Assembly (NCBI GenBank): GCA_021783595.1
Contig: JAJXTS010000004.1
Coordinates: 1 to 44,329, forward strand
Length of the DNA: 44,329 nt
Source: Chloroflexota bacterium
GTDB taxonomy: Bacteria; Chloroflexota; Limnocylindria; Limnocylindrales; CSP1-4
Direction of reading: 5' to 3'
Position 1 is the stretch's first letter. The number at the start of each line of letters is the position of its first letter. Position numbers and translations under genes: made by a program. The notes below the pieces were generated by a model that searched no databases, was not told the DNA's origin, and worked only from the letters and a program-made list of their open reading frames with translations. Shown piece by piece: positions 1 to 39,437 of this stretch.

Positions 1-2
1 TG

Positions 3-1475: not shown

Positions 1476-1500
1476 GGGATCTCCGGACTGGGCGGGGTGG

Positions 1501-1528: not shown

Positions 1529-1572
1529 GGGACTGGCGACGGGGTCGGCCCCGCGGCCAGTGGGATCAGGGG

Positions 1573-3036: not shown

Positions 3037-3119
3037 GCGTGCCTCCGGCCGGGTCGGCTGGCGACCCGGCAGCGTGTGCGGGGCGGCGGGCCGCCCCGGG
3101 GATCGCTGCGCGAGGGCGG

Positions 3120-5734: not shown

Positions 5735-5744
5735 GGTTGTTGCC

Positions 5745-8311: not shown

Positions 8312-8328
8312 CGGGTGGCGGTCCTCAT
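8308..8328 (-). CDS. Candidate leaderless six-residue upstream ORF (MRTATR) overlapping the DUF1638 start
   Basis: A minus-strand TACGAT hexamer (8336-8341) lies 7 bases before this ATG, so the transcript should begin at or one base before it. The ORF reads MRTATR and its TGA overlaps the ATG of the DUF1638 gene as ATGA. The DUF1638 gene has only a weak, distant GAGG, so it may be translated by coupling. Too short to be certain. Confidence 0.35.
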   Translation of the reverse strand: MRTATR

Positions 8329-8456
8329 GGGCCCGATCGTAGCAGCGGCCCTCGCCGACCCGGCGCGTGGGCCTGGCCGGGCCGACGCAGTCCCGCGCGG
8401 TCTCGGCGAGCTCTGGCGGCGGTCCCGCGGCCGGGGCAGGTTTCGACGACGCGGGG

Positions 8457-8462
8457 CATGCT
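8457..8462 (+). promoter_or_regulatory. Candidate near-leaderless -10 CATGCT
   Basis: CATGCT resembles TATGCT and ends 8 bases before the ATG at 8470. The region has no Shine-Dalgarno sequence, so near-leaderless initiation is plausible. Confidence 0.35.
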
Positions 8463-8469
8463 TGGCGCG

Positions 8470-9624: not shown

Positions 9625-9699
9625 CGCCCGAGCGGGTCTCGGGCCGCGCAGCGGCGATGTCCCGGCCGTGCGGCACCTGACGTCCGGGGCCGACCCGGC

Positions 9700-9705
9700 T
9701 ATGCT
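9700..9705 (+). promoter_or_regulatory. -10 hexamer TATGCT
   Basis: A good -10 match about 45 bases before the GTG start at 9757, which also has a purine-rich ribosome binding site (GGGGGAGC). This is a leadered promoter, unlike several others in the window. Confidence 0.45.
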
Positions 9706-9756
9706 GCACCGACGCGGGCAGATGAACCGTCGCACCGGAAGTCTCGGGGGAGCGCC

Positions 9757-10266
9757 GTGCGTGAGCCACTCGTCGCGTGGGCCGGGGACTGCGTCGTCCG
9801 GGGTGACGTCGCCCTCGGGGACGGGCGCCTGAGCGATCAGGTCAACCGGTTCGAGGTCATGACCTTCTTCGGGGCGGTTGTCGATTCCCTCGATGACGGC
9901 CGCCGAGTCGCGCTGGACGAGCTCGAGGTGGAGCGGCACGAGCTCCACATCATCGAGGTGGCGGGCCACCGCGGTGACCCGGCCCGCCGGCTGCGCACGG
10001 TCCCGGAGCGCGTGCGGCTGGAGGTCGGCCCGTTCGACGTGACGGGCTATGTCCACCGGGCGCCGAGTGCCGCTCCCCTGGCGGCGCTGTCCCGCTGGGC
10101 CCGGTTCGTGCCGGTGACCGATGCCGAGTTCCGGTGCGCGGGCCGTGACGACGAGCCCACCCGGCGCGAGGTCGTGCTCGTGAACCGCGACCGGATCAGC
10201 CGCGTGGCCGAGGTGGCGGTGCCCAGCTTCGAGCCCGACCCGCGCTCGGCCGACGCCCCGGTCTGA
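9757..10266 (+). CDS. Hypothetical protein, 169 aa
   Basis: Starts at GTG 9757 behind GGGGGAGC. A soluble, acidic protein rich in beta-type segments, with no signal peptide or membrane helix. The sequence alternates Val/Leu/Arg strands (VVRGDVALGDGRLSDQVN, ELHIIEVAGH, VRLEVGPFDVTGYVH), suggesting one or two small beta-barrels of the kind seen in uncharacterised Chloroflexota and actinobacterial proteins. I cannot assign a function. It has its own promoter and is separated by 210 bases from hypF, so it is probably not part of the hyp operon. Confidence 0.7.
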   Translation: MREPLVAWAGDCVVRGDVALGDGRLSDQVNRFEVMTFFGAVVDSLDDGRRVALDELEVERHELHIIEVAGHRGDPARRLRTVPERVRLEVGPFDVTGYVHRAPSAAPLAALSRWARFVPVTDAEFRCAGRDDEPTRREVVLVNRDRISRVAEVAVPSFEPDPRSADAPV

Positions 10267-10476
10267 GCGAGGCCGGTCGGGCACCCCGGGCCGCCGGCGC
10301 AGTCCCGCGCCTGACGCCGTCGGCGACGAGCTCGTCGGCCTCGTCCCCAACGGCCTGCGGCCCGCGGTCGCGCCGCGCCCCGGAGCGCGGCCCTCCGGGC
10401 TGACCCGCGAATGGCGCGCTCCGTTTCGGGCCGTTCGGCACGTCTGGGTCGGGCCTCTCTGGCCGACGCTACCCGC

Positions 10477-12876: not shown

Positions 12877-12879
12877 ACG

Positions 12880-13230
12880 ATGTGTCTGGGGATCCCGGGG
12901 CGGATCACCGAGATCCGCGACGAGGCCGGCCTCGCCATGGGCAAGGTGGACTTCGGCGGCGTGCGCAAGGACGCCTGCCTCGCCTACCTGCCGGAGGCGC
13001 GGCTGGGCGACTACGTCATCGTCCACGTGGGCTTCGCGATCAGCCGGGTGGACGAGGCGGAGGCCCTCAAGACGCTCCAGATCCTCGACGAGATGGGCGT
13101 CATGGAGCCCGAGCTGATGACCCTGGGCCCCGGCATGGAGGAGCCCGCCCTCATCAGCGACGACGACCCGTCGATCTACGTCTTCGACCCGGCGCAGCCG
13201 CCGTCCAACTTGGCCGGCCCCACGGCATGA
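12880..13230 (+). CDS. hypC: HypC/HybG/HupF family chaperone, C-terminally extended
   Basis: 116 aa. It begins MCLGIPG, with the essential Cys2 that binds the Fe(CN)2CO unit with HypD and hands it to the large subunit. The usual family ends near residue 80; here about 35 acidic, proline-rich residues follow ([10 protein letters not shown]...), with no cysteines. The extension could modify binding to HypD or to the hydrogenase, but this is a guess. It lies between hypF (3-base gap) and hypD (ATGA overlap), so it is translated with them. Confidence 0.95.
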
Positions 13231-14381
13231 AGTATCTCGACGAGTACCGCGACCCCGTGCTCGCGAAGAGGCTGGTGGCCGAGATCCACCGGATCACCAC
13301 GCGGCCGTGGACCCTCATGGAGGTCTGCGGCGGGCAGACGCACACGATCGTCAAGCAGGGGATCGACGAGGCGCTGCCCGAGGGCGTCCGCATGATCCAC
13401 GGGCCCGGCTGCCCCGTCTGCGTGACGCCGCTCGAGCAGGTGGACAAGGCCCTCGCCATCGCCGCGCGGCCGGACGTGATCTTCACCAGCTACGGCGACA
13501 TGCTGCGCGTGCCCGGCTCGTCGACGGACCTGCTGGCCCTCAAGGCCCGCGGCGCCGACGTCCGCATCGTGTACAGCCCGCTCGACGCGCTCAAGATCGC
13601 GCTCGCGAACCCGGACAAGCAGGTGGTCTTCTTCGCGGTCGGCTTCGAGACCACGGCGCCCGCCAACGCGATGTCGGTGGCGGAGGCTGCCCGGCGGGGG
13701 ATCGACAACTACAGCGTGCTCGTGAGCCACGTGCTGGTGCCCCCGGCCATGACCGCGCTGCTGGACTCGCCCACCAACCGGGTCCAGGGGTTCCTGGCCG
13801 CCGGCCACGTGTGCGCGGTCATGGGCTGGACCGAGTACGAGCCCATCGCCGAGCACTACCGCGTGCCGATCGTGGTCACCGGCTTCGAGCCGCTGGACCT
13901 GCTCGAGGGCGTCTACATGGCCGTCCGCCAGCTGGAGGAGGGGCGCCACGAGGTGGAGAACCAGTACGCGCGCGCCGTCACCCGCGAGGGCGTGCCGCTG
14001 GCCCAGCAGCAGATCCAGCGCGTGTTCGAGGTCGGGCCGCGCAAGTGGCGCGGCGTGGGCGAGATCCCGATGTCCGGCTACCGCCTGCGCCCCGAGTACG
14101 CCCGCTTCGATGCCGAGGAGAAGTTCGACGTCGGCGACATCCGCACCAACGAGCACCCTGCCTGCATGGCGGGCGCCATCCTGACCGGCGAGAAGGTGCC
14201 GCTCGACTGCACCGCGTACGGCACGCTGTGCACCCCGCAGCGGCCGCTCGGCGCGCCGATGGTGTCGTCCGAGGGGACGTGCGCGGCGTTCTTCGCGGCC
14301 GGGCGCGGGCTCGGCGCCGGCCGCGGCTTCTCGGCCGCGCTGCCGCTGGTCCAGGTTGTGCCGGCGGAGGGCGGGCGATGA
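13227..14381 (+). CDS. hypD: Hydrogenase maturation factor HypD
   Basis: 384 aa. Conserved cysteine motifs are present: EVCGGQTH near the N-terminus, HGPGCPVC, a central GHVCAVMG, and the C-terminal 4Fe-4S set ([25 protein letters not shown]). HypD is the scaffold on which the Fe(CN)2CO group is assembled with HypC and HypE; its 4Fe-4S cluster and thiols provide electrons. Its start overlaps the hypC stop and its stop overlaps the hypE start, both as ATGA. Confidence 0.97.
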
Positions 14382-15457
14382 CGGCCGACCGCGAGGCCGG
14401 GGCCACGATCGACGCCGAGGGCATCGCCTGCCCGGCGCCGATCCCCGAGGACCAGCGGGTCATCCTGGGCCACGGATCGGGCGGCCAGCTGTCCGCGGCG
14501 CTGATGCGGGACCTGCTCGCCCCGGCCCTCGCGGCCGCGTCCCCGGGCGGCGTGCTCAACGACGCGGCCGTCGTTGAGATCGGCGGGGCGCGGCTCGCGT
14601 TCACCACGGACTCCTTCGTGGTCTCGCCGATCCGCTTCCCCGGCGGCGACATCGGCGAGCTGGCGGTGAACGGCACGCTCAACGACCTCGCCATGATGGG
14701 CGCCACGCCGGTGGCGATCAGCCTCGCCTACGTCATCGAGGAGGGGCTGCCGCTCGAGGAGCTGCGCACGATCACCCTGTCGGCGGCGGCTGCGGCGCAG
14801 CGGGCGGGCGCGCAGATCGTCACCGGCGACACCAAGGTGGTGGGCCGCGGCGCGGCGGATCGGCTGTTCGTCAACACCGCCGGGATCGGCCTCATCCGCG
14901 ACGGCATGGAGCCGGCGGCGGACCGGGCCCGGCCGGGCGACGCGGTGATCCTGTCGGGGCCCATCGGCCTGCATGGCGTGGCGATCATGAGCGTCCGCGA
15001 GGGGCTCGAGTTCGAGGTGGAGATCGCCTCGGACACGCAGTCGCTGGCCGGCCTGGTGGCGGCCATCGCGGCGGTGGCGCCCGACGTCCACGTCCTGCGC
15101 GACCCCACGCGCGGCGGCCTCTCGTCGGCGCTCAACGAGATCGCGCAGGCGTCAGGCGTGGGCATGGTCCTCGACGAGCCGGCCATCCCGATCCCGGGCC
15201 CGGTGCGAGCCGCGTGCGAGTTCCTGGGCCTGGACCCGCTCCACGTGGCCAACGAGGGCAAGCTGGTGGCGATCGTGCCGGCGGCCTCAGCGGACGCGGT
15301 GCTCGCCGCGATGCGCGCCACGCCCGAGGGCGCCGAGGCCACGCGCATCGGCGAGGTCGTGGCCGACCACCCGGGCATGGTCACGATGCGCACGATCGTG
15401 GGCAGCGAGCGGATCGTGGACATGCTGGTGGGGGAGCAGCTGCCGCGCATCTGCTGA
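14378..15457 (+). CDS. hypE: Hydrogenase maturation protein HypE (carbamoyl dehydratase)
   Basis: 359 aa of the PurM/AIRS fold. The N-terminal ATP site [10 protein letters not shown] and the [10 protein letters not shown] and [13 protein letters not shown] segments are intact. The protein ends PRIC, the family signature whose terminal cysteine receives the carbamoyl group from HypF and is dehydrated with ATP to thiocyanate. About 20 residues precede the usual start. Last gene of hypF-C-D-E. No hypA or hypB for nickel insertion follows; those must lie elsewhere if the hydrogenase is active. Confidence 0.97.
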
Positions 15458-17601: not shown

Positions 17602-17643
17602 ATGCCTCTGCGTCCCCGTCGCGGCTCAGGTCGATGGACCTGA
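17602..17643 (+). CDS. Candidate leaderless upstream ORF (MPLRPRRGSGRWT) overlapping the hyfB start
   Basis: Thirteen residues, starting at the predicted first base of the transcript. Its TGA (17641-17643) lies just past the hyfB ATG (17634), an overlap of 10 bases in another frame. hyfB has only a weak AGG ahead of it, so ribosomes finishing this ORF may reinitiate at hyfB. The peptide is arginine-rich, with four arginines. Function as a peptide is unlikely; a coupling or attenuation role is inference. Confidence 0.45.
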   Translation: MPLRPRRGSGRWT

Positions 17644-19670
17644 CAGCCGCCGCCGCCTGCCTCCCGCCCGCGATCGCAGCCCTGCTCGCCCTCGCGCTGG
17701 TGGCTGCGGTGCTGCCGGCGGGGACACGCGCGCGATCCGTCAGCTACGGCGCGGCGGCGGCGGCATCGGCCGTCATGGTGGCGCTGTCCCTCGCGGTCCT
17801 GGCGGGCGCGGCGCCGGTCGCCTTCTCGTGGGGTGCCGTCCTGGGCTTCTCCCTCATCGACGTCCGGATCGACAGCCTGGGCGCCGTCTTCGTCCTCATG
17901 CTCGGGCTCGTGGGCACCGTCGCGTCCGTGTACGCCATCGGCTACGCACCGCACCCGGACGCCAGCGGCGCCCACGACGCGCCGGTCCGCTGGGCGGATC
18001 CGGTCCTGGCCGCCTATCCCGTGTTCCTGGGCAGCATGTTCCTCGTGTTCGGCGCGGCGGACCTCGTGGCGTTCCTCATCGCATGGGAGGCCATGGCCGT
18101 GGCGTCCGCGGCGCTCGTGGTGGGCGGGCGGCCGACGCCCGGCCAGGCGCGGGCCGGCTACCTCTACCTCGTCCTCACGCACCTCGCGACCGGCGCCCTC
18201 GTGGTGGCGTTCGCCGTTGCGGCGGCCGCCGGCGGCACGGCCCTCGACGGTCTGCCGGCCGTCGCGCGCTCCATGTCCGGCCCGACGCGGGACCTGCTGT
18301 TCGTGCTGCTCGCCGTGGGGTTCGCGACCAAGGCCGGCGCCGTGCCGCTGCACGTCTGGCTGCCCCGCGCCCATCCCGTCGCGCCCTCGCCCGTGTCGGC
18401 CCTGATGTCGGGCGTCATGGTGAAGGCCGGGATCTACGGGCTGGTCCGGTTCGTGCTGGTCGGTCTCGGGCCGGGACCCGAGTGGTGGGGCATGGTGGTG
18501 CTGGCGATCGGCACCGTGTCGGCGGTCCTTGGGGTGCTGTACGCGCTGATGGAGCACGATCTCAAGCGGCTCCTGGCCTACTCGACCATCGAGAATGTCG
18601 GGATCGTCCTGATCGGCGTGGGCACGGCGATGCTGGCCCAGGCGGCCGGCCTGCCTAGCCTTGCGACGCTCGCTCTCGCGGCGGCCCTGCTGCACGCCCT
18701 GAACCACGCGGCGATCAAGGGGCTGCTGTTCATGGCTGCGGGCTCCATCGCGCAGGCGGCCGGGACCCGCGACCTCAACCGGCTCGGCGGCCTGTGGCGC
18801 GGCATGCCCGTGACCGCCCTCGCGTTCGGCGTCGGCGCGGCGGCGATGGCCGGGGTGCCGCTGCTGGGCGGCTTCGCCGGCGAGTGGCTCACCTTCCAGG
18901 CGCTGCTCGGCGTGGCCGCGTCGGGCGGCGTGTCGGCGGAGGTTCGCTCCGTGCTGCTCCTGGCCGCGGGCGGGCTCGCCCTGGCCGCGGCGCTCGCCCT
19001 GGCGACCTTCGTCAAGGCGACGGGGACCGGCTTCCTCGCGCTTCCCCGCAGCCAGCCGGCGGCGCTCGCCCGCGAACCGGCGCGAGCGATGGTCTGGGCG
19101 ACGGCCGCCCTCGCCGGGGTGTGCGTCGCGATGGGCCTCGCCGCGGCGCCGATCGCCGGGGTGCTGGCGGGAGCTGCCGGGCCGCTGCTCGGCGTCCTGG
19201 GCGGCGCCGAGCCGGCCGGGCTCGTGCTGGGCGGGCCCGGCGGCGCGGGCTACGGACCCCTGGCGGTCGCCGTCGTGCTCGGCGTGGTGTTCGCCGTCGT
19301 CGGGCTGGCCGGTCGTCGGGGCCGTTCCGTCCGGCGTGTCCCGACCTGGACGTGCGGCATCTCGCCGGAGCCGTCGTTCGAGTACACGGCCACCGGCTAC
19401 GCCAAGCTGCTCCGCCTGTACTTCGGGCCGGTCCTCCGCCCGCAGCGCGAGGTCGAGGTGGAGCTCCATCCCGGCACGCCGTTCCCGCGCGCGGTGAGAT
19501 ACCGCGGCGGCGCCCGCCACCTGATCGACGAGCGCCTGTACGTGCCGCTGCACCGGGCGGCCGTGGCGGCCGCGCAGCTCGCCCGCCGGATTCAGAACGG
19601 CAGCCTCCAGCTGTATCTCGCCTACACCGTGATCGCGCTGGTGGTCCTCCTGCTGGTGGCGCGGCCATGA
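17634..19670 (+). CDS. hyfB: Hydrogenase-4 subunit B, NuoL/M/N-type proton-translocating subunit
   Basis: 678 aa, about fifteen membrane helices. The antiporter-like core is clear: WEAMAVASAALVV, FATKAGAVPLHVWLPRAHP (the conserved lysine and HxWLxxAH motif), and LKRLLAYSTIENVGIV. The C-terminal cytosolic stretch, TWTCGISPEPSFEYTATGYAKL with a final membrane helix, is specific to the HyfB/HycC branch. It is expected to pump protons across the membrane, coupled to electron flow between the ferredoxin-type input and the [NiFe] site. First large gene of the operon; its stop overlaps hyfC as ATGA. Confidence 0.95.
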   Translation: MDLTAAAACLPPAIAALLALALVAAVLPAGTRARSVSYGAAAAASAVMVALSLAVLAGAAPVAFSWGAVLGFSLIDVRIDSLGAVFVLMLGLVGTVASVYAIGYAPHPDASGAHDAPVRWADPVLAAYPVFLGSMFLVFGAADLVAFLIAWEAMAVASAALVVGGRPTPGQARAGYLYLVLTHLATGALVVAFAVAAAAGGTALDGLPAVARSMSGPTRDLLFVLLAVGFATKAGAVPLHVWLPRAHPVAPSPVSALMSGVMVKAGIYGLVRFVLVGLGPGPEWWGMVVLAIGTVSAVLGVLYALMEHDLKRLLAYSTIENVGIVLIGVGTAMLAQAAGLPSLATLALAAALLHALNHAAIKGLLFMAAGSIAQAAGTRDLNRLGGLWRGMPVTALAFGVGAAAMAGVPLLGGFAGEWLTFQALLGVAASGGVSAEVRSVLLLAAGGLALAAALALATFVKATGTGFLALPRSQPAALAREPARAMVWATAALAGVCVAMGLAAAPIAGVLAGAAGPLLGVLGGAEPAGLVLGGPGGAGYGPLAVAVVLGVVFAVVGLAGRRGRSVRRVPTWTCGISPEPSFEYTATGYAKLLRLYFGPVLRPQREVEVELHPGTPFPRAVRYRGGARHLIDERLYVPLHRAAVAAAQLARRIQNGSLQLYLAYTVIALVVLLLVARP

Positions 19671-20623
19671 CGTGGGACGCAGCCTCGCTCCTCCTCGGGC
19701 TGACCCAGACGGCGCTCGCCCTGGCCATCGCCCCGCTCCTGCTGGGGGTGGCCAAGCGCGTCAAGGCGCGTCTTGGCTACCGGACCGGCGCGCCGCTGCT
19801 CCAGCCCTACCGGGATCTCGCCAAGTGGTGGCGCAAGACCCCCGTGGAGAGCGAGGCGTCGAGCGCGGTGACCGCCTGGGCGCCCGCCGCAGTGGTGGCC
19901 GCGATCGTCACCGCGACGCTGCTCGTGCCGCTGGTGGGGGAGCGCCCGCTGCTGGGCGGCTCGGGCGACTTCCTGGTCGTCGTCGGGCTGCTCGCCGGCG
20001 CCCGGTTCCTCATGGCCCTGCTTGCCCTCGACGCGGGCAGCGCCTTCGGCGGCATGGGCAGCAGCCGCGAGGTGGCGATCGCCGCGCTCGTGGAGCCCGC
20101 GCTGCTGCTCGCGCTCGCCGTGGCCGCCGTCGCGGTCGGGAGCACCGACCTCGCGGTCATCGCCGGCGCCGGCGTGGCGCGCGGTCTCGCCTGGCTCACC
20201 CCGTCGCTGCTGCTTGGCGCCGCGGCGTTCGCGCTGGCGGCCGTCGCCGAGACGGGCCACGAGCCGTTCGACAACCCCGACACGCACCTTGAGCTCACGA
20301 TGGTCCACGAGGGGATGCTGCTGGAGGCGTCCGGGCCCCGGCTGGCGATGCTCGCGTACGCCGCGCAGCTGCGCCTCGTCGTGGTGGCATCGCTGTTCGC
20401 GGCCGCGTTCTTCCCGTTCGGCATGACCGTCGCGCTCACGCCGCTGTCGGTCGCCGTCGCGCTCGCCGCCGCGGTCGCCAAGCTGCTCGCCGCGGCCGTC
20501 GCGCTGGCGCTCCTCGACGCCGGGCTCGCGAAGCTTCGGATCCTGGCGCTGCCGGGCCTGCTCGGGTTCGCCTCCACGCTGGCCGTGATCGGGCTCGCTG
20601 CCCGCCTTTGGCTGCCGGCATGA
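19667..20623 (+). CDS. hyfC: Hydrogenase-4 subunit C, NuoH-like
   Basis: 318 aa with about eight transmembrane helices. The NuoH family signatures are present: a YRDLAKWW segment after helix 1, and an acidic loop, AETGHEPFDNPDTHLELTMV, that links the quinone-type cavity to the hydrogenase arm in this superfamily. It anchors the hydrophilic large and small subunits to the antiporter-like subunits. Overlaps hyfB and hyfE by ATGA. Confidence 0.95.
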   Translation: MTWDAASLLLGLTQTALALAIAPLLLGVAKRVKARLGYRTGAPLLQPYRDLAKWWRKTPVESEASSAVTAWAPAAVVAAIVTATLLVPLVGERPLLGGSGDFLVVVGLLAGARFLMALLALDAGSAFGGMGSSREVAIAALVEPALLLALAVAAVAVGSTDLAVIAGAGVARGLAWLTPSLLLGAAAFALAAVAETGHEPFDNPDTHLELTMVHEGMLLEASGPRLAMLAYAAQLRLVVVASLFAAAFFPFGMTVALTPLSVAVALAAAVAKLLAAAVALALLDAGLAKLRILALPGLLGFASTLAVIGLAARLWLPA

Positions 20624-21285
20624 TTCTCGACCCGAGCACCGCCTCGCAGCTCGTGGACGCGGTCGCCGCGGCGGTCGTGGTCCTGGGCATCGGCATCGCC
20701 TCCACGCGGTCGCTCGGCCGGATGATCTGGGTGACGGCCGCCCAGTCCGCGCTGGTGGGCGCCGCCGCGCTCGTCGTGGCGGCCGCGACCGGGGCCGCCC
20801 ACCTGGCGCTTGGCGGCGTGCTGGCGATCGGCGTCAAGGGCGTCGTGGTGCCCCTGGTGCTGGGGTCCATCCTGCGGCGGTCCTCGGTGCGTCAGGAGCG
20901 CCGCCCGGTCGTGGCGCCCCGCGTCACGTTCGTGCTGGCCGTGGTCATCGTGTTCGTCGCCACCGCCGCCACCCACGACGTCCGGCTGCCCGTGGCGCTC
21001 GACGCCGCCCGTGCGCTGCCCGCGGCCATCAGCACGCTGCTCACGGGGCTGCTGATCGTCATGACCCGGCGCAAGACGCTGTCGCTCGTGGTGGGGCTGC
21101 TGGTGTTCGAGAACGGGATCGCGCTGGCCGCGTTCTCGCTCGTGTACGCCATGCCGATCGTGGTGGAGCTGGGCGTCCTGTTCGACCTGCTCATCGCCGT
21201 TGTCGTGGCGTGGGTGTACTCGCGCCGGATGCTCGACGTGCTCGGCACGCTGTCCACCGACGAGCTGCGGAACCTGCGCGGATGA
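20620..21285 (+). CDS. hyfE: Hydrogenase-4 subunit E
   Basis: 221 aa from ATG 20620, which overlaps the hyfC stop; the ORF-track start at 20608 lies within hyfC. Six or seven membrane helices; the C-terminal half resembles NuoK (SLVVGLLVFENGIALAAFSLVYAMP, with the buried glutamate in FENG). HyfE is the membrane subunit that distinguishes Hyf from Hyc complexes and adds to the proton path. It overlaps hyfF. Confidence 0.93.
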   Translation: MILDPSTASQLVDAVAAAVVVLGIGIASTRSLGRMIWVTAAQSALVGAAALVVAAATGAAHLALGGVLAIGVKGVVVPLVLGSILRRSSVRQERRPVVAPRVTFVLAVVIVFVATAATHDVRLPVALDAARALPAAISTLLTGLLIVMTRRKTLSLVVGLLVFENGIALAAFSLVYAMPIVVELGVLFDLLIAVVVAWVYSRRMLDVLGTLSTDELRNLRG

Positions 21286-22769
21286 CCGAGCTGCTGACCC
21301 TGGCCATCGCGCTGGCGCCCGTCCTCGGGGCCCTCGCGGCGTGGTCCGCCGGGAAGGGGGGCAGGGCGCGCCTGGCGATGGGCATCGGCATCACCGCGAC
21401 CGGCACCTCCATGGCCGCGGCCGCGGCGCTCGGGGCATGGGTCTTCGCCGCGGGGACCGAGACCGCGTTCTCCGGGCTGGTGACCGTGGACGCACTGGGC
21501 GCGTACATGCTGCTGCTGGTGGCTGCCGTGGCCGCCATCGCGTTGGCGGCGTCGCCCGGGTACCTGGCGCGCCATCGGGCCGACGGCACCCTGCCGCCGC
21601 TCGAGGAGGGAACCTACTGGGCGCTGCTCGCGCTGTTCGCGGGCGGGCTCGCGACGGTGCCGCTGGTCGACAATCTGGGCCTCGTCTGGGTGGGGATCGA
21701 GGCGACGACCGCGGTGTCCGCGCTGCTGGTCGGCTTCACGCGGTCGCCGCGCGCGATCGAGGCGGCCTGGAAGTACCTGATCCTCGGGTCGATCGGGATC
21801 GGCTTCGCGCTGCTCGGCACGATGCTCCTGTTCGCCGCCGCGGGCCCGGCCGCGGACGCCGGCAACGCCCTCGCCTGGACCGAGCTGGGCCGGTCCGCGG
21901 CGAGCCTGGACCCGGAACTGCTGCGCCTGGCGTTCGTGTTCGCGCTCGTCGGCTACGGGACCAAGGCGGGTCTCGCGCCCTTCCACACGTGGCTCCCCGA
22001 CGCCCACAGCCAGGCGCCCGCCCCGATCTCCGCGCTGCTCTCGGGGGCCGGTCTGGCGGTGGCCCTGTACGCGCTGGCGCGGTTCCACCACATCGTCGCG
22101 ACGGCGCTCGGCCCCGGCTTCTCGGGGACGCTCCTGGTCGCCTTCGGCCTGCTCAGCCTGGCCGTGGCCCTGCCGTTCATCGTGGCGCAGGGAGACCTCA
22201 AGCGGCTCCTCGCGTACTCGTCCATCGAGCACCTCGGGCTCGCCACGCTCGCCCTCGGGTTCGGCGGCCGCCTGGCCCTGGCCGGCCTCGCGCTCCACCT
22301 GTTCTGCCACGGGCTCGCCAAGGCGTCCGCGTTCGTCGCGGCCGGCCGGCTCGTCGAGGAGGCGGGCAGCCACCGCATCGGCCGGCTCCGCGGCAGCCTG
22401 ACCCGATCGCCCGCGGCGGCGCGCGCGCTGGTCGTCGCGTCCCTGATGCTGTCGGGCCTGCCGCCGTCGGGCATCTTCGTGGCCGAGCTGGCGATCCTGT
22501 TCGGCGGGGTGGCCGCTGGCTGGGCGCTGGCCGCGGCCGTGGCGGCCGTGCTGCTGGCGCTCGCCGTGGCGGGGCTGCTGTTCCACGTGGCGCGGGTGGC
22601 GGTCGGACCCAACCGCGCGCGCGGGCCGCGAGTCTCCATCCGCGCCCGGACGGCGCTGGCGCTGGCGGCACCGCTGGCGCTGGTGGCGGCAGCGGGCCTG
22701 TGGACGCCGTCGCCGGTGGCGGCCGCCATCGCGCAGATCGTGGCCGTCCTCGGAGGCGGCCATGGATGA
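21282..22769 (+). CDS. hyfF: Hydrogenase-4 subunit F, NuoL/N-type antiporter-like subunit
   Basis: 495 aa with about fourteen membrane helices. Core motifs are FALVGYGTKAGLAPFHTWLPDAHS, LLSGAGLAVALYALARFHHI and LKRLLAYSSIEHLGLATLALG, matching HyfF. It is a second antiporter-like proton channel next to HyfB, so the complex has at least two putative pumping subunits. Overlaps hyfE (ATGA) and hyfG (8 bases). Confidence 0.94.
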   Translation: MTELLTLAIALAPVLGALAAWSAGKGGRARLAMGIGITATGTSMAAAAALGAWVFAAGTETAFSGLVTVDALGAYMLLLVAAVAAIALAASPGYLARHRADGTLPPLEEGTYWALLALFAGGLATVPLVDNLGLVWVGIEATTAVSALLVGFTRSPRAIEAAWKYLILGSIGIGFALLGTMLLFAAAGPAADAGNALAWTELGRSAASLDPELLRLAFVFALVGYGTKAGLAPFHTWLPDAHSQAPAPISALLSGAGLAVALYALARFHHIVATALGPGFSGTLLVAFGLLSLAVALPFIVAQGDLKRLLAYSSIEHLGLATLALGFGGRLALAGLALHLFCHGLAKASAFVAAGRLVEEAGSHRIGRLRGSLTRSPAAARALVVASLMLSGLPPSGIFVAELAILFGGVAAGWALAAAVAAVLLALAVAGLLFHVARVAVGPNRARGPRVSIRARTALALAAPLALVAAAGLWTPSPVAAAIAQIVAVLGGGHG

Positions 22770-24279
22770 GACGAGGGCCGGCGCGTGCGCGCAGGTGCCG
22801 GCGAGCGGCTTGGCCGAGGCGGTGGGCAGGAGCGTTGCGGCAGGCGGCCGGTACGCCATGCTGGTCGGTCTCGACGAGCGCTCGCTGGGCGGCGCAGGGC
22901 TCGGCCTGGAGGCGGTCCTCGTTGGCCCCGGCGGCGACCTGGAGCGGATCCGGGCGGCGGTGCCGCTGGACGCGACGGGCTACCCCTCGATCACGCCCCT
23001 CGTGCCGGCCGCCCACTGGGACGAGCGCGAGGCGCGCGACCTGCTGGGCACCGTCCCGGTCGGCCATCCGGACCCGCGGCGGCTCGTGCTTCACGAGCGT
23101 TGGCCGCGCGGCTACCACCCGCTGCGCAAGGACGTGCCCGTCGGGGCGCGGCCGCCGCTCGCGGACCGTCGCTTCGCGCCGTTCGAGGTGCACGGGGAGG
23201 GGACGTACGCGCTGCCGGTCGGGCCGATCCACGCGGGGATCATCGAGCCCGGCCACTTCCGCTTCTCCGCCATCGGGGAGCGCGTGCTGCACCTCGACCC
23301 GCGTCTGTTCTTCGCCCACCGCGGCCTCGAGAAACTGGCGGAGGGGCGGCCGCTGGCCGGGGCGACGCCGCTCATCGAGCGGGCCTGCGGCGTGTGCGGG
23401 GTGGCGCACGGCGTTGCCTGGGCCAGCGCGGTCGAGGCGCTCACCGGCACCCGGGCCCCGGCCCGTGCCGCATGGGCGCGGGTCCTGCTGGCCGAGCTCG
23501 AGAGGCTCTACAACCACGTCGGCGATCTCGGGAGCATCTGCGCCGGGATCGGTTTCGGGTCCGGCGCGGCGCGCCTGGGGCTGCTTCGGGAGCGCCTGGT
23601 GCGGGCGAACGACGCGCTCGTCGGGCACCGCTACCTCGCGGGGATCGTCGTTCCGGGCGGGCTCGGCCGGCCGCTGGACGCCGCCGCCCTGGCCGCGCTG
23701 CCCGGCCTCGTCGCCGACATCGAGGCCCAGGTGGCCGCCGCGGTGCGGTCGATCGTCCGCTCGGACGGCGTGATGGCCCGCCTCCGGACCACCGGCGCGG
23801 TCCCGGCCGAGACGGCAGCGGCGCTCGGGGCGACCGGCGTCGCCGCGCGGGCCAGCGGGATCGATGCCGACCTGCGTCGCGACCGCCCCTACGCCGCGTA
23901 CGCCGAGCTCGACGTGTCGGTGGCCACCGCCGCCTCGGGCGACGTCGCGGCGCGCTTCCACGTCCGGGCGCAGGAGGCGGCCGCGTCCGCTCGGCTGGTG
24001 GTCGAGGCCGCTCGCAGGCTGCCCGTCGGCGAGGATCGGGTGCCGCTCGGTGAGGCTCGTGCCGGCGAGGTTGCGATCGCGGGTGTCGAGGGGCCGCGGG
24101 GCGCGTCCTGGCTGTGGCTGCGGGCGGGTGACGCCGGGACCGTGGACCGCGTCCGGCTGCGCTCGGCGTCGTTCGCCAACTGGCCCCTGGTGGCGGCCGC
24201 CATGCCCGGCAACGTGGTGCCCGACTTCCCGCTCATCAACAAGAGCTTCGAGCTCTGCTACGCCTGCACGGACCGCTGA
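22762..24279 (+). CDS. hyfG: Group 4 [NiFe] hydrogenase large subunit (NuoC-NuoD fusion), without C-terminal extension
   Basis: 505 aa. Residues about 1-150 are NuoC-like (30-kDa subunit: HWDEREARDLLGTVPVGHPD, RGYHPLRKD); residues about 160-505 are the catalytic NuoD-like domain. The proximal motif RACGVCGVAHG (Cys209, Cys212) and the distal CYAC (Cys499, Cys502) supply all four cysteine ligands of the Ni-Fe site, so this is a real hydrogenase and not a complex I relative that has lost the metal. The protein ends CYACTDR with the stop directly after Arg. In HycE-type enzymes cleavage occurs after this Arg and removes about 30 residues; here there is nothing to cut, as reported for CooH-type large subunits. 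The Asp-Pro before the distal cysteine is replaced by Glu-Leu. Confidence 0.95.
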   Translation: MDETRAGACAQVPASGLAEAVGRSVAAGGRYAMLVGLDERSLGGAGLGLEAVLVGPGGDLERIRAAVPLDATGYPSITPLVPAAHWDEREARDLLGTVPVGHPDPRRLVLHERWPRGYHPLRKDVPVGARPPLADRRFAPFEVHGEGTYALPVGPIHAGIIEPGHFRFSAIGERVLHLDPRLFFAHRGLEKLAEGRPLAGATPLIERACGVCGVAHGVAWASAVEALTGTRAPARAAWARVLLAELERLYNHVGDLGSICAGIGFGSGAARLGLLRERLVRANDALVGHRYLAGIVVPGGLGRPLDAAALAALPGLVADIEAQVAAAVRSIVRSDGVMARLRTTGAVPAETAAALGATGVAARASGIDADLRRDRPYAAYAELDVSVATAASGDVAARFHVRAQEAAASARLVVEAARRLPVGEDRVPLGEARAGEVAIAGVEGPRGASWLWLRAGDAGTVDRVRLRSASFANWPLVAAAMPGNVVPDFPLINKSFELCYACTDR

Positions 24280-24281
24280 CC

Positions 24282-25112
24282 ATGCCCTTCGACGTGCTCG
24301 ACCGCTACCTGCGACCGCTTCGCCACGGCCGCGCCACCAGCCGCTATCCCGCCGAGGCGCCGGACCTGTCGCCGGCGTCGCGCGGGCTGCCGGCCCTCGA
24401 CGCGGCAGCGTGCGACCGGAGCGGCTCGTGCGCGGCCGTCTGCCCGACGGGCGCGATCAAGCTGGAGTCGGACGGCTGGCGGCTCGATGCGGGCTCCTGC
24501 CTGCTGTGCGACGCCTGCGTCGCGGCCTGCCCGACCGGCGCGCTGGGCCACACCGGCGAGATCGAGCTGGCGACCCGTCGCCGGAGCGACCTGGTGGTGC
24601 TGGGCGAGCCGCCCTGGGCCGTCGAGGGGGGCGCCGCCGGCAAAGCCCTCGCCGAGGCGAGAGCCCTGGCCGACGCGAACGCCCTCGCCACCGCGATCGA
24701 CCGTCGCCTGGGCCGGTCGCTCCACGTCCGCCACCTCGACGCCGGCTCCTGCAACGGGTGCGACTGGGAGATGAGCGCCCTGCTCAACCCGTACCACGAC
24801 GTCACGCGGTTCGGCGTGGACTTCGTGGCCTCGCCGCGCCACGCGGACGTGCTCCTGGTGACGGGCACGATGACCCGCAACCTCGAGGAGGCCGCGGTGC
24901 GGACGTACGAGGCCATGCCGGAGCCGCGGCTGGTCGTGGCGGTTGGCGCCTGCGCCATCGGCGGCGGGGTCTTCGCCGGCAGCTACGCCGGGCGGGACGG
25001 CATCGGCGAGGTGCTGCCGGCGGACGTGCTCATCCCGGGCTGCCCGCCGCGCCCGGAGGCGCTGATCCAGGGCCTGCTGCTGCTTGCCGACCGCTGGGTC
25101 CCGCGCGGGTAG
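24282..25112 (+). CDS. hyfI: Hydrogenase small subunit HyfI fused to an N-terminal two-cluster ferredoxin (HyfH-like)
   Basis: 276 aa. Residues about 40-90 hold two 4Fe-4S sets (CDRSGSCAAVCPTGAI and CLLCDACVAACPTGAL), the job of the separate HyfH/HycF protein in E. coli. The first set has its leading cysteine in a slightly altered spacing. Residues about 140-276 are the NuoB-type small subunit with the proximal cluster cysteines in SCNGCDWE, GACAIGG and GCPPRPE. Electrons would pass from a soluble donor, likely ferredoxin, through the three clusters to the Ni-Fe site in HyfG. Two bases separate it from hyfG. Last gene of the operon; no HyfA, HyfD, HyfJ or formate dehydrogenase follows. Confidence 0.92.
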   Translation: MPFDVLDRYLRPLRHGRATSRYPAEAPDLSPASRGLPALDAAACDRSGSCAAVCPTGAIKLESDGWRLDAGSCLLCDACVAACPTGALGHTGEIELATRRRSDLVVLGEPPWAVEGGAAGKALAEARALADANALATAIDRRLGRSLHVRHLDAGSCNGCDWEMSALLNPYHDVTRFGVDFVASPRHADVLLVTGTMTRNLEEAAVRTYEAMPEPRLVVAVGACAIGGGVFAGSYAGRDGIGEVLPADVLIPGCPPRPEALIQGLLLLADRWVPRG

Positions 25113-34805: not shown

Positions 34806-35594
34806 TCAGGGGGCGGCGGGCGCCGGCACGAGGAGGTGCCCGGCGACCCGGGCGGGCAGGCCCGCCGGCAGGACCGCCCCGGACGTCCCCGAGGTCGCGG
34901 CCGGCGCGGGCGAGCCCGACGGCGCGGGCGCGCCCGACGCGGCCGGCGCCGGCGTTGGGGCGCCGGACCCGACACCCGCCGACGGCGACGGGGAGGCGAA
35001 CAGGTACTGGAACTCGGGCCCGTTGTGGCAGATCCAGCAGTTGTCGCCGCGGTTGGCCATGTTTGACGGCAGGGGCGCGTGCTTGGCCGGATTGTGGCAG
35101 TCGGTGCACGCCTCGCCGGTCATGTGCTCGGGGCGCGCCGGCACCTGGCTCATGGAGGTCAGGTTGGGGTTCTCCTGGTGGCAGATCAGGCACTGGCTCG
35201 CGTGGAGGCTGGAGTGTCCGGGAGCCGTCTTCACCAGGCCCGTCGGGTTGTGGCAGGCGGTGCAGTTGGTGAACCCCTGGAGCGGGTGGCCGAGGTACGG
35301 GATCGGCTTCGTGCCCACCCCGCCGGTCGAAATCGTGTGGCAGGCCATGCAGTCGGCGTTGGGCGGCATCGCGATCCCGATCGCCGAGAGCGCCATGGCG
35401 GAGCTCGGTTGCGGCGAGCCGCTGGGACCGGCGCCGCCCCCGCCGGGGGCAGGCGTGCCGGAGGCGCCGGTGCGGAGCATGTTCGGCAGCGCGACCGTGA
35501 CCACGAACCCCCCAGACACGAGGATCGCCACCAGCAGCGCGAGAAACGCGACCGGGAAGGCGAGCCGCTCCGCGGAGCGCGGCAGGGGGCGCAT
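34806..35594 (-). CDS. Membrane-anchored pentahaem c-type cytochrome
   Basis: 262 aa from ATG 35594. One N-terminal membrane helix (LAFPVAFLALLVAILVSGG), then a glycine/proline linker, then five CxxCH haem-binding motifs (CMACH, CTACH, CLICH, CTDCH, CWICH). The C-terminal 65 residues are a Pro/Ala/Ser/Gly-rich tail. It would sit on the periplasmic face and carry electrons to or from the NrfD complex. It is the last gene of the operon, 11 bases after nrfD. The haem spacing resembles class III-type and NapC/NrfH-like carriers rather than a catalytic nitrite reductase. Confidence 0.92.
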   Translation of the reverse strand: MRPLPRSAERLAFPVAFLALLVAILVSGGFVVTVALPNMLRTGASGTPAPGGGGAGPSGSPQPSSAMALSAIGIAMPPNADCMACHTISTGGVGTKPIPYLGHPLQGFTNCTACHNPTGLVKTAPGHSSLHASQCLICHQENPNLTSMSQVPARPEHMTGEACTDCHNPAKHAPLPSNMANRGDNCWICHNGPEFQYLFASPSPSAGVGSGAPTPAPAASGAPAPSGSPAPAATSGTSGAVLPAGLPARVAGHLLVPAPAAP

Positions 35595-35605
35595 CACGGG
35601 CCGCC

Positions 35606-36964
35606 TCACGGGACGGCCTCCGCGGCGGCTGCGGGCGCGAGGCCCGACTCGGCCGCCGCCGGGGCCTCGGGAGCGCCGCCGCCCGCGTCCGCCTCTTCGC
35701 CGTGCTCGTGGTGCCTGAGCCACGGCCACGGCCAGAACAGGTGGACGTCGCCCTCGCCCATCGGCAGGTACCGCTCGCACAGGGAGTAGGCCATCGCCAT
35801 GAACGAGGCTGCCCCGACTAGGATCCCGATCTCGACCAGCGACGGCGTGTACGCGACGTACGGGTAGGCCACCGTGCCCGCCATCGTGGTGCGGGGCACG
35901 AACTCCCCGGCAACGACGAACAGCGACCGGTCCACGAAGATGCCGAGCAGGGCCAGCCCGGAGGCAAGGCCGGTGAAGCCGACGGTCCGCAGGCGCGGCA
36001 GGGCGAGGATGGCGAGCGGGGCCACAAGGCCGGCCGCAACCCGGAGACCCCAGAAGGCGGGTGCCAGCGGCCCGGCCACCATCGCCAGCGTGGACGGCCG
36101 GAAGCCGGCGACGTCGCTGGTTAGGCCGTCCGCGACCTGCCGGGCCAGCAGGGCGGCGACCACCAGCAGGCCGCCTGCCAGCAGCAGGCGCACCGACCCG
36201 AGCGCCACGCCGGACCGGCCCCAGTCGGCGAGGCGGAAGCGGCTGACCGCCCAGAACACGATCCCCAGCAGCGAGACCCCGCCGACGAACGCCGAGGCGA
36301 CCATCAGGATCGGCGTGAAGACCCCGGCCCAGAGCGGCTTGGCGGCGACCATGCCGAACACCGCCCCGAGCGTGGTCGGCGCCGCAATGCCGATCATCGC
36401 GGCCCCGGTGCAGGCGTACTTGTGGATGACCGGGTGGTTCGTGAACAGCGTCCACACCTCCACGATGAGGACCACCAGGTACCCGCCGTAGAAGACGCCC
36501 ATCCACCACATGGGCGAGCTGGGCGAGATCACCAGCACGGCCCCGAAGACCATCCGGACGGGGTACTGCAGCTCGAGCGCGATGACCCCGAAGGCCGTGG
36601 ACAGCGAGAGGATCGCGAGGATCGCGTGGCGCTTCTCGAGGGGGAGGAAGCGCTCGATGCCGAACACCGTGCCCAGCGAGGACGCCAGGCACAGGCCGCT
36701 GGTCATGATGGCGAAGAAGACATAGCCGACGATGAGCATGCCCCACTCGATCGACGGCGACGTGCCCATGACCTCCCAGCCCGGCGGCAGGGCGAGGATC
36801 GCGGTCACCGCGCCGATCGCGAGACCGGCCAGGAGCAGCGCATACCAGACCCGGGTGGCGAGGGGCATGGCGCTGACTTCCCGCGCCAGCGCGGCGCGGA
36901 TCGCGCGGGGGCTGGCGGGGAGGGCCAGCCTGCCGACGTGGAGCGTGCTGTCCACGACCTGCAT
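35606..36964 (-). CDS. NrfD/PsrC-family polysulfide reductase-type membrane subunit
   Basis: 452 aa with about ten membrane helices, nearer the longer HybB/ActC-like form than the eight-helix NrfD. Helix 1 is ALLLAGLAIGAVTAILAL; a conserved segment is EWGMLIVGYVFFAIMTSGLCLAS. It is the quinone-binding membrane part of several respiratory modules and here should exchange electrons between the menaquinone pool and the ferredoxin subunit. The C-terminus is a cytoplasmic Ala/Glu-rich tail of about 50 residues. It lies 3 bases after the ferredoxin gene. Confidence 0.92.
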   Translation of the reverse strand: MQVVDSTLHVGRLALPASPRAIRAALAREVSAMPLATRVWYALLLAGLAIGAVTAILALPPGWEVMGTSPSIEWGMLIVGYVFFAIMTSGLCLASSLGTVFGIERFLPLEKRHAILAILSLSTAFGVIALELQYPVRMVFGAVLVISPSSPMWWMGVFYGGYLVVLIVEVWTLFTNHPVIHKYACTGAAMIGIAAPTTLGAVFGMVAAKPLWAGVFTPILMVASAFVGGVSLLGIVFWAVSRFRLADWGRSGVALGSVRLLLAGGLLVVAALLARQVADGLTSDVAGFRPSTLAMVAGPLAPAFWGLRVAAGLVAPLAILALPRLRTVGFTGLASGLALLGIFVDRSLFVVAGEFVPRTTMAGTVAYPYVAYTPSLVEIGILVGAASFMAMAYSLCERYLPMGEGDVHLFWPWPWLRHHEHGEEADAGGGAPEAPAAAESGLAPAAAAEAVP

Positions 36965-36967
36965 CGC

Positions 36968-37984
36968 TCAGGACTCCTGGAGGGCGGGCCCGAGGTACAG
37001 CGCGCGGGGCTGCGTGCCGTACTCGGGGTGGAGGGGACGCGCTCCGGCGGCCAGCGCCGCCGTGCGGATGTCGTCATTGGGGTCGTTGGCGTTGCCGAAG
37101 CGCCGGGCGCCGACCGGGCAGATCTCCACGCAGGCGGGTTGCTGCCCCTTGCTGATCCGCTGGTAGCACCAGGTGCACTTGTCGGCGACCCCCGGCGTGC
37201 CAGCCGGCGTGTCCTCGCCGGCCGGCGTGATGTAGCGGGCGCCGTAGGGGCACGCCACCACGCAGTAGCCGCAGCCGATGCACCTGCGGGCGTCCACCAG
37301 GACGATGCCGTCCTGGGTCGTGTAGGTGGCGCTGACCGGGCAGACCGAGGTGCACGGGCTGTCCGCGCACTGCATGCACAGCCGCGGCTGGAAGTAGGCG
37401 GACTTGACGGTCTTGCCCCCCGCGCCCGGTGCCGTCGAGGTGGGCGGGAAGCCGTTGATGCCGGCGTCGGGCGAGTCCACGTAGACCGTGCCGTCGGTCA
37501 TCGTCACATGCCGCTCCACCCACGTCCGCGTGAACGCGGCGGACTCGGGCACGTGGTTCTCCTCCTTGCAGGCGACCACGCACAGCCCGCAGCCGATGCA
37601 CTTGGAGGTGTCCACCACGAACGTCCACGCCTTGGTGGCCGGGTCGTAGTTGGGGACCAGCGGCGAGACCTGGTCCCCGGCGCTCGCGAACACCGGGAAC
37701 AGCTGCCCGAGGACCGCGGCCCCCGCCACCCCGCCCGCCAGCGCCAGCCCGAAGCCGAGGAAGGCGCGCCGGGACAGGGAGGCCTGCCGGATGGCCGGGG
37801 CGATGGCCTCGAGCGGGACGAGGACGGCGTCGGCCGGGGCCTCGCCCGCCGTCGCGGCGGCCCGCCCGGGCGCGGTGGCACCTGCCACGGCCGGCTCCGC
37901 AGGGGGCGCTGACGGCTCGCCGACTGCCGGCTGCGGCTGGTCGAGCGGCTCGAGGCGGTCGAGGGGCTCCGACGGCTCGGTCAC
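36968..37984 (-). CDS. Tat-type four-cluster ferredoxin subunit (NrfC/PsrB/DmsB-like)
   Basis: 338 aa from GTG 37984, which overlaps the hexahaem gene stop as GTGA. A twin-arginine motif SRRAFLG is at about residue 71, followed by a hydrophobic segment. A normal Tat signal has it near residue 10, so the n-region is about 60 residues too long, and no alternative start lies between. Four 4Fe-4S sets follow: CIGCGLCVVAC, CMQCADSPCTSVCP, CIGCGYCVVACP, and CTWCYQRI with PACVEICP. It passes electrons between NrfD and the multihaem cytochromes on the periplasmic side. No molybdopterin subunit accompanies it. Confidence 0.9.
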   Translation of the reverse strand: MTEPSEPLDRLEPLDQPQPAVGEPSAPPAEPAVAGATAPGRAAATAGEAPADAVLVPLEAIAPAIRQASLSRRAFLGFGLALAGGVAGAAVLGQLFPVFASAGDQVSPLVPNYDPATKAWTFVVDTSKCIGCGLCVVACKEENHVPESAAFTRTWVERHVTMTDGTVYVDSPDAGINGFPPTSTAPGAGGKTVKSAYFQPRLCMQCADSPCTSVCPVSATYTTQDGIVLVDARRCIGCGYCVVACPYGARYITPAGEDTPAGTPGVADKCTWCYQRISKGQQPACVEICPVGARRFGNANDPNDDIRTAALAAGARPLHPEYGTQPRALYLGPALQES

Positions 37985-38727
37985 GGTGCCACCTTGCTCG
38001 GGCTGGGCTGCGGGCTGGGTACGGCCCCCCCGCTCACGGTCGGCTGCGGCGTGGGCAGGGTGAGCTGCTGCGGGCCGCGCCCCGCCTGGTGGCACTGGAG
38101 GCACTCGTTGTCCGTCAGCGGGCCAGAGGGGTGGCGCTCGTTGCGGGCCTTGAAGCCGTCGGGGCCGTGGCACGTCAGGCAGGGCGGCAGGTTGGCCAGC
38201 GGATGCGAGACGACCGGCGGGTGCAGGGCCCAGGTCGTGTGCGGGTCGTGGCACTGGAGGCACTGGGAAACGTAGTGGTTGGCCGGGACGATCGTCTGGA
38301 TGGTGGCGGGGCGGCCCTCGGTGGCCTCGTGGCAGCGGATGCAGACCGCGTCGGTCGGCATCGCGATCGCCGCGCCCGTGGTGATGCCGCGCTTGGCCGC
38401 GTCCTCGTGCGCCAGCATTGGGCCGTGGCAGCTCTGGCAGCCGATGCCGGCATGGGTGTGGCTGGCGAGCCGGCTCGCCTCGGTGAGGTGGCACGCCACG
38501 CAGTCCGACGAGGCCGCGAACGACATGTCCAGCGCCGCCCACTGCTTGGCGTTGCTGTCGCGGTGGAGGGCGAAGTCCAGGTACGGGCTCCACGCCATCG
38601 CGGCGCTCGCGAAGATCGCGACCGCGATCACGGCCGCGCCGACGAGAACGCCGGTGGTGCCGATCAGCCAGCCCCGGCGGGAGCGGGGCCGGACGGATGC
38701 CCAGAAGCGGCGCGCGCGCGTCCTCAT
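37981..38727 (-). CDS. Membrane-anchored hexahaem c-type cytochrome
   Basis: 248 aa from ATG 38727. After an arginine-rich start comes one membrane helix (LIGTTGVLVGAAVIAVAIFASAAMAW), then six CxxCH motifs: CVACH, CQSCH, CIRCH, CLQCH, CLTCH, CLQCH. The tail is Pro/Ser-rich. Histidines suited to distal haem ligation are frequent (HTHAG, HEDAAK, HYVSQ), as in NapC/NrfH-like and cytochrome c3-like carriers. It overlaps the regulator gene upstream (ATGA) and the ferredoxin gene downstream, so it is part of the same message. Confidence 0.92.
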   Translation of the reverse strand: MRTRARRFWASVRPRSRRGWLIGTTGVLVGAAVIAVAIFASAAMAWSPYLDFALHRDSNAKQWAALDMSFAASSDCVACHLTEASRLASHTHAGIGCQSCHGPMLAHEDAAKRGITTGAAIAMPTDAVCIRCHEATEGRPATIQTIVPANHYVSQCLQCHDPHTTWALHPPVVSHPLANLPPCLTCHGPDGFKARNERHPSGPLTDNECLQCHQAGRGPQQLTLPTPQPTVSGGAVPSPQPSPSKVAP

Positions 38728-39437
38728 AGGACCGACGGGTTCAGCAGGCCGCGCCGAACCGTGTACCGGAGGAGCTCGACCCGGTCGTGCAGGTCGAGCT
38801 TCTCCATGAGGCTGGCGCGACTGGAGTGGACGGCCTGCTCGGAGAGGTCCAGCGACCGGGCGATGTCGCGGTTCGTGTGCCCCAGGGCGGCCAGGAGCAG
38901 GATCTGGCGCTCGCGGTCCGTGAGGTGCTCGTACGGGTCGTCGGCCGCCGCCGGGGTCCGGCGGACGTACGTGTCCACCATGCGCGTCAGGATCGCGGGG
39001 CTCACGTACGTGTGGCCCGCGCTCACGGCCCGGATCGCGGCGACCACGTCGTCCGCGAGCGCCTCGCGGGTGAGCAGCCCGGTGGCGCCCGCCTTGAGCA
39101 CGGTGGCGAACTGGTCCGTGGCGCACCGGCAGTCGAGGGCGATCACCCGGGTCCCGGGGGCGGCCGCGCGGACCTCGTCGATCGCCTCCGGCACGCCGAT
39201 GCCGTCGGCGGCGAAGGCCTCGTAGCCCAGGATGACCACGTCGGGCGCCGCCGACCGCGCCTGGGCGAGGATGGCCTGGCGGCTCCGCGCCTCGGCGACG
39301 ACGGCCATGTCGCGCTCGTGGTCGACCACGGACCTGAAGGCGGCGCTGAGCATGGGGAAGTCGCCGATCGCGAGCATGACGCCAACCATGGCGCCATCGC
39401 GCGGCACTCCGGAGCTCTGGTCGCGGGCAGCCGTCAT
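38724..39437 (-). CDS. LuxR/NarL-type regulator with a degenerate receiver domain
   Basis: 237 aa from ATG 39437; GTG 39497 would add 20 residues. The C-terminal HTH is normal (LTDRERQILLLAALGHTNRDIARSLDLSEQAV). The N-terminal domain has the receiver fold but not its chemistry. At the phospho-acceptor site the usual VVLLD reads VVILG (Gly71). The conserved Thr/Ser after beta-4 is in an altered VIALDCRC segment, and the Lys of the last strand is replaced in GLLTREA. Phosphorylation is therefore unlikely; a ligand, redox change or protein partner could be the signal. Two cysteines (CRC) near the active-site edge are notable. It is translationally coupled to the multihaem operon it probably regulates. 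Confidence 0.9.
   Translation of the reverse strand: MTAARDQSSGVPRDGAMVGVMLAIGDFPMLSAAFRSVVDHERDMAVVAEARSRQAILAQARSAAPDVVILGYEAFAADGIGVPEAIDEVRAAAPGTRVIALDCRCATDQFATVLKAGATGLLTREALADDVVAAIRAVSAGHTYVSPAILTRMVDTYVRRTPAAADDPYEHLTDRERQILLLAALGHTNRDIARSLDLSEQAVHSSRASLMEKLDLHDRVELLRYTVRRGLLNPSVL

Follow-up and report, generated by a model that had tools for sequence, protein, structure and literature searches.

In complexes built around an NrfD-type membrane subunit, the established view is that quinone is bound within NrfD and that a ferredoxin subunit relays electrons to or from cytochromes at the outer face of the membrane (PMC8076601). Several sets of NrfD-type, 4Fe-4S and multihaem proteins without a molybdopterin subunit have already been described. 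NhcABCD of Desulfovibrio combines one nine-haem cytochrome and NhcD with a four-cluster ferredoxin and a long NrfD-type subunit of ten helices (NhcC), and Nhc is described as a TpIc3:quinone oxidoreductase (PMC8076601). In SirCD of Shewanella and CbcSTU (Cbc4) of Geobacter, a ferredoxin and a membrane subunit, which is of b type in the case of CbcU, serve a cytochrome network as its quinol dehydrogenase, and a c-type cytochrome is also part of Cbc4 (PMC11434368). In the archaeal Methanoperedenaceae, groups 4 and 5 include an operon for NrfD, an Fe-S protein, and a 3-haem and a 6-haem cytochrome, with no catalytic subunit, for which quinone-to-cytochrome electron transfer has been proposed (PMC7327174, PMC7082337). 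The NrfD fold (ActC) and a ferredoxin are also present in alternative complex III and in Qrc, along with pentahaem ActA or multihaem QrcA, and, in Hyd-2 (HybOABC), NrfD-type and ferredoxin subunits share an operon with a [NiFe] hydrogenase.

The locus considered here lies in a stretch of 44,329 nucleotides (the window; contig JAJXTS010000004.1 of assembly GCA_021783595.1) from a 2.6-Mb metagenome bin, 86% complete, of a Chloroflexota bacterium. A preliminary description of this DNA reported a four-gene module encoding a hexahaem and a pentahaem cytochrome, a four-cluster Tat ferredoxin and an NrfD protein. All four structural genes (g1-g4, table 1) are found in a tight operon, with a 4 nt overlap between g1 and g2 and gaps of only 3 nt between g2 and g3 and of 11 nt between g3 and g4, but a fifth gene had been overlooked, namely that of a LuxR/NarL-type regulator, which is the first of the operon and the frame of which would allow a start as far up as 39497. 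At one end the structural genes adjoin the regulator, and at the opposite end MFS and hydrolase genes follow. The sole tRNA call made by ARAGORN, a tRNA-Gly at 35407-35504 on the plus strand, antisense within g4, is most likely spurious.

Table 1. Genes of the operon in window coordinates; the structural genes g1 to g4 run from 38727 to 34806 on the minus strand.
Gene	Product	Position	Strand	Features
Regulator	Atypical LuxR/NarL-type response regulator	38724-39389	-	Overlaps the start of g1 by 4 nt
g1	Hexahaem cytochrome c	37981-38727	-	248 aa; six CXXCH; N-terminal hydrophobic helix
g2	Tat-exported ferredoxin (PsrB/NrfC/DsrO type)	36968-37984	-	338 aa; GTG start
g3	NrfD-type quinone-site membrane subunit	35606-36964	-	452 aa; PF03916
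g4	Pentahaem cytochrome c	34806-35594	-	262 aa; five CXXCH; N-terminal hydrophobic helix

The ferredoxin g2 carries a SRRAFL Tat motif and 16 Cys residues arranged in four [4Fe-4S] motifs, all 16 of which are invariant in an alignment of 15 sequences, and its top match in the PDB is the PsrB-type 2vpw_B (E 2e-40). The g3 product, the only match to PF03916 in the genome, scores 59 bits with this family (cut-off 25.8). Searching the PDB with an NrfD sequence profile returned no true relative, and only fold comparison did so: in the AlphaFold model of g3 (pLDDT 70) ten long helices are predicted, and Foldseek identified ActC of alternative complex III as its best match, with menaquinone-bound PsrC also among the significant ones.

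The eleven haem motifs of g1 and g4 are all of the CXXCH type. The six of g1 are invariant among 14 aligned sequences, which share exactly six further invariant His residues (H92, H107, H151, H163, H175 and H199), that is, one possible distal ligand for each haem; the five of g4 are invariant among 16 sequences, with 5-8 haems found in the counterparts of relatives. The conservation of the motifs and of the six additional His of g1 rules out chance occurrence, and, with a conserved candidate distal ligand for all six haems, as six bis-His haems would require, g1 has no obvious open catalytic haem. A g1 profile gave as top PDB match 6r2q_A (E 1.8e-7), which we take to be MtrA, the haem wire of the MtrCAB complex, the molecule name in the file reading otherwise, and the top NCBIfam model was that of a DmsE-type decahaem protein, with a score far under its cut-off. 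By these matches, g1 resembles the MtrA/DmsE-type haem wires. The AlphaFold model of g1 (pLDDT 49) was too poor for use.

Membership in known complexes was evaluated with NCBIfam-type curated cut-offs and gene content, and no part of the module reached a curated cut-off of Nrf, Qrc, Hmc, Dsr, Ttr, Arr or Hyd-2. For NrfABCD, the scores were 125.5 of the required 377.6 with NrfC and 17 of 166.6 with NrfB, the NrfD model gave no match and the operon has no NrfA-type gene. QrcC scored 100.5 (cut-off 400) and no molybdopterin gene (QrcB) is present; HmcA scored 17.1 of 400 and HmcB 96.7 of 420, with no HmcC match; DsrO of DsrMKJOP scored 166.6 of 200, and the flanking genes are those given above. 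Alternative complex III was rejected on the single PF03916 match in the genome and the lack of ActB and ActDEF in the operon, and Hyd-2 on a HybA score of 104.2 of 263, no match to HybB and no hydrogenase adjacent to the operon in the window. The initial statement that the operon does not correspond to the standard Nrf, Psr, Act, Qrc or Hmc gene orders nevertheless goes too far if read to mean that no known arrangement resembles it, in view of NhcABCD, SirCD and the Methanoperedenaceae operons of groups 4 and 5. On the basis of its adjacent genes for an NrfD subunit, an exported four-cluster ferredoxin and cytochromes, with no Mo, nitrite or sulfite catalytic subunit in the operon, although two loci of relatives carry a [NiFe] hydrogenase, the module is assigned to the broad kind of NrfD/Fe-S/multihaem menaquinone:cytochrome c oxidoreductases, with quinone-dependent electron transfer predicted.

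Features that set the module apart within this known kind are its pair of six- and five-haem cytochromes, its atypical regulator and its link to a hydrogenase. Nhc, which shares with it the multihaem, four-cluster ferredoxin and long NrfD-type subunits, has its single nine-haem cytochrome in place of the pair and NhcD, no counterpart of which was seen in the module. The Methanoperedenaceae sets, compared by description, have the same components and are likewise free of a catalytic subunit, but they are archaeal, and neither a hydrogenase nor a LuxR-type regulator is reported there. SirCD and CbcSTU, also compared by description, share the proposed role and differ in gene order and haem number, as well as in the b-type CbcU (PMC11434368). 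Alternative complex III and Qrc differ from the module in their molybdopterin-like ActB/QrcB protein and, for the former, ActDEF. What is new with respect to the described systems is the hydrogenase partner, and nothing specific on such an operon with a hydrogenase in CSP1-4 or Limnocylindria was found in the literature.

An NrfD match above 400 bits, taken as presence of the module, was obtained for 26 of the 107 genomes examined in the family, which is probably CSP1-4; relatives that bear a name are Chloroflexi bins, RBG_16_72_14 for example. When 400 genomes from across the phylum were sampled, all strong matches fell within the family, and a single distant relative, G240, scored 165 bits. 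The succession of regulator, hexahaem cytochrome, ferredoxin, NrfD and penta(5-8)haem cytochrome is kept in most intact loci of relatives, the regulator adjoining g1 and being often preceded by a membrane ORF of approximately 110 residues. The G240 locus encodes a histidine kinase, a canonical regulator, the hexahaem cytochrome, ferredoxin and NrfD, and no g4. In another phylum, a similar arrangement (8-haem, Tat ferredoxin, NrfD, 8-haem) is present at 7747-12613 of a locus of the Deltaproteobacteria bin AB_1215_Bin_118 (L046). Distant NrfD loci of other phyla (L040-L045 and L048) were rejected as representing the same context, their NrfD genes adjoining large subunits, the size and surroundings of which point to molybdopterin enzymes, as confirmed for the one that was checked (L040).

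The regulator scores 57.9 bits with the GerE domain and only 30.9 bits with the receiver domain. The position of the phospho-acceptor Asp is occupied by Glu in most relatives and by Gly in the window, and a CRC motif is frequently conserved among the regulators of the window and of loci L023-L039. Since the distant G240 locus retains a canonical receiver along with a histidine kinase and the regulator of the operon is degenerate, control by phosphorylation seems to have been lost, and the protein may respond to a phosphorylation-independent, perhaps redox, signal.

With two PsrA/TtrA-type proteins as tblastn queries, no molybdopterin subunit was detected in the window or at any of 25 module loci, so that the early proposal of a module devoid of such a subunit holds throughout this set. 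However, in two relatives of a single genus (G482 and G479), g4 overlaps by 4 nt the gene of a [NiFe] hydrogenase small subunit, so that module and hydrogenase form one operon, which continues with the large subunit, a b-type cytochrome that scores above the curated cut-off of TIGR02125 and a heptahaem cytochrome. In combining NrfD-type and ferredoxin subunits with a [NiFe] hydrogenase this operon resembles that of Hyd-2, from which it differs in its two multihaem cytochromes plus the heptahaem and b-type ones. The genome of the window carries this hydrogenase set as well, on a different contig (C61), along with genes for a maturation protease and the heptahaem protein. This locus is the only other multihaem locus found in the bin (86% complete) with an exact CXXCH pattern, which was adopted because a PF09699 search missed the cytochromes of the window itself.

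Module and hydrogenase are also connected through their cytochromes. Among 120 multihaem ORFs of the fetched loci, g4 and the hydrogenase heptahaem proteins form one homologous group, in which the weakest heptahaem scores 70 bits and the best outsider 44 bits, and the tree of this family separates a hydrogenase clade from a module clade with a support of 1.0, g4 and the heptahaem protein being paralogues. Furthermore, of the 20 genomes assigned the heptahaem hydrogenase, six of them from truncated contigs placed by the large-subunit tree or by identity, 18 contain the module, as do 8 of the 87 genomes without this hydrogenase (Fisher p 2e-12). These counts are based on metagenome bins that are incomplete and on species that are related to one another; at 80% completeness or above, all 14 genomes with the heptahaem hydrogenase in the genera tested also contain the module. 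Permutation within genera gave a p value of approximately 0.002, unchanged at a completeness of at least 80%, for genera and labels tabulated by hand, with only genera with listed variation contributing and genomes of one genus not being independent. The association with the heptahaem-free hydrogenase type was weaker (p 0.05-0.13). Eight module genomes, several of which are fairly complete (G002, G029, G359, G397), have no heptahaem hydrogenase, which is therefore not obligatory. Thus, the suggestion of a free-standing conduit stands for the most part, since neither the window nor all but a few of the relatives have a catalytic subunit next to the module and the hydrogenase linkage is occasional rather than constant. 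Given the joint operon in two relatives and the co-occurrence in most others, however, complete independence of the module is unlikely.

Elsewhere in the window, a complex I-like gene set at 17634-25112 (antiporter subunit, fused 30/49-kDa subunit, ferredoxin and 20-kDa subunit), the fused subunit of which retains two CxxC pairs (CGVC and CYAC), probably encodes a group 4 [NiFe] hydrogenase; next to it, at 10477-15457, are hypF and the likely hypC, hypD and hypE genes. Genes at 1-7490, which from their N-terminal sequences encode MttB-like methyltransferases, a corrinoid protein and corrinoid-activating ferredoxin-like proteins, suggest a metabolism of methylated amines or similar methyl groups.

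In other genera, decahaem clusters are found in the vicinity of the module. In G033 the module is about 6 kb away from a Rieske/cytochrome b/decahaem set, in G181 it lies tail-to-tail with ResB/ResC/TlpA-like genes and a decahaem cytochrome, and several relatives contain, elsewhere in the genome, large multihaem clusters with a NapC-headed decahaem, Rieske and cytochrome b genes. These neighbours indicate that the module resides in genomes rich in extracytoplasmic cytochromes, the hydrogenase being one partner among others. The association of the module with the Rieske/cytochrome b/decahaem cluster (p 0.01 with all genomes, 0.05 at 80% completeness) implies that some of the co-occurrence could stem from a lifestyle that is rich in cytochromes in general. 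As a separate observation, loci L081-L091 (from G001-G006 and G015) are large clusters in which 6-10-haem proteins are accompanied by CcdA/ResB/ResC-like genes, a NapC-headed decahaem, a Rieske-like protein, cytochrome b, a second decahaem and stand-alone degenerate receiver-like proteins (VLLLYSHPLMGEGL...EEGG), and are candidate extracellular electron transfer loci of Limnocylindria.

Taken together, the gene content and linkage make it fairly likely that the operon encodes a membrane-bound menaquinone:cytochrome-pool oxidoreductase that shares its cytochrome network with an H2-oxidising enzyme. Menaquinone would bind to g3, and electrons would pass between g3 and the four clusters of g2, and between g2 and the wire-like g1 and g4 at the outer face of the membrane, with the four proteins assembling in one complex. 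The module has no substrate-reducing subunit, its partners would be other extracytoplasmic multihaem proteins, and it probably couples the quinone pool with a network of extracytoplasmic cytochromes. Proton translocation has been attributed to NrfD-type subunits, and g3 might perform it as well. The best-supported partner is the [NiFe] uptake hydrogenase with its small, large, cytochrome b and heptahaem subunits, and the paralogy of g4 and the heptahaem protein suggests that the two complexes most likely serve the same cytochrome pool. As to direction, draining of menaquinol into the pool is estimated to have a little better than an even chance, since a quinone-reducing b subunit is already part of the hydrogenase, and the entry of H2-derived electrons into the quinone pool through the module is put distinctly lower. 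Counting against this reading of a shared network, the b-type cytochrome of the hydrogenase can reduce quinone without the module, the hydrogenase is missing from eight module genomes, and in the genome of the window the two gene sets lie on different contigs.

That the module instead feeds decahaem cytochromes and external acceptors, for example Fe(III), with the hydrogenase only sharing the same lifestyle, has an appreciable, if less than even, probability. The large clusters of the relatives and the G181 and G033 neighbourhoods argue for it, and the same arrangement has been proposed to serve metal reduction in Methanoperedens (PMC7082337); however, the exact-pattern search of the 86% complete genome of the window (G000) showed only the hydrogenase locus as a further multihaem locus, and G000 has only a distant Rieske-complex-type cytochrome b. 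It is rather doubtful that the module serves H2 uptake, with electrons flowing from H2 through the hydrogenase, the heptahaem protein, g4/g1, g2 and NrfD to menaquinone, much as Desulfovibrio uses Nhc or Qrc together with cytochrome c3 and a periplasmic hydrogenase. As an electron donor H2 is strong enough to reduce menaquinone, and the shared operon, the paralogous cytochromes and the assignment of Nhc as a TpIc3:quinone oxidoreductase (PMC8076601) are consistent with this route, but it would be redundant because of the b-type cytochrome of the hydrogenase operon, and the module also occurs without the heptahaem hydrogenase. Less likely still, module and hydrogenase might form one assembly, in which H2 electrons would reach menaquinone and, through the paralogous haem wires, go straight to an extracytoplasmic or extracellular acceptor under a phosphorylation-independent regulator. 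If true, it would be an H2-powered multihaem system in Chloroflexota. A replacement of complex III, in which the module would feed an oxygen reductase as menaquinol:cytochrome c reductase in the manner of alternative complex III, is improbable: the g3 model is closest to ActC and a haem-copper oxidase is encoded in most family genomes searched, but a bc-type cytochrome b, which chiefly determines the low rating, is present in G000 and most relatives, ActB-type fusion, ActD, ActE and ActF genes are missing from the operon, no oxidase was found in G000 and many oxidase-bearing relatives lack the module. Finally, a reductase of Nrf or Mcc type acting on nitrite or another oxyanion, with g1 or g4 itself catalytic, is very improbable despite a gene order resembling NrfBCD and weak NrfB/NrfH-like matches, given the six candidate distal His for the six haems of g1, the CXXCH nature of all motifs and NrfC and NrfB scores far under the cut-offs.

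For the abundant uncultivated Chloroflexota of soils and sediments, the menaquinone:cytochrome-pool oxidoreductase proposed here would provide a specific, testable route by which H2 oxidation and the quinone pool meet in a multihaem network. The duplicated cytochromes of the two complexes, g4 and the heptahaem protein, joined in one genus, may also illustrate how modular NrfD complexes gain a catalytic partner.
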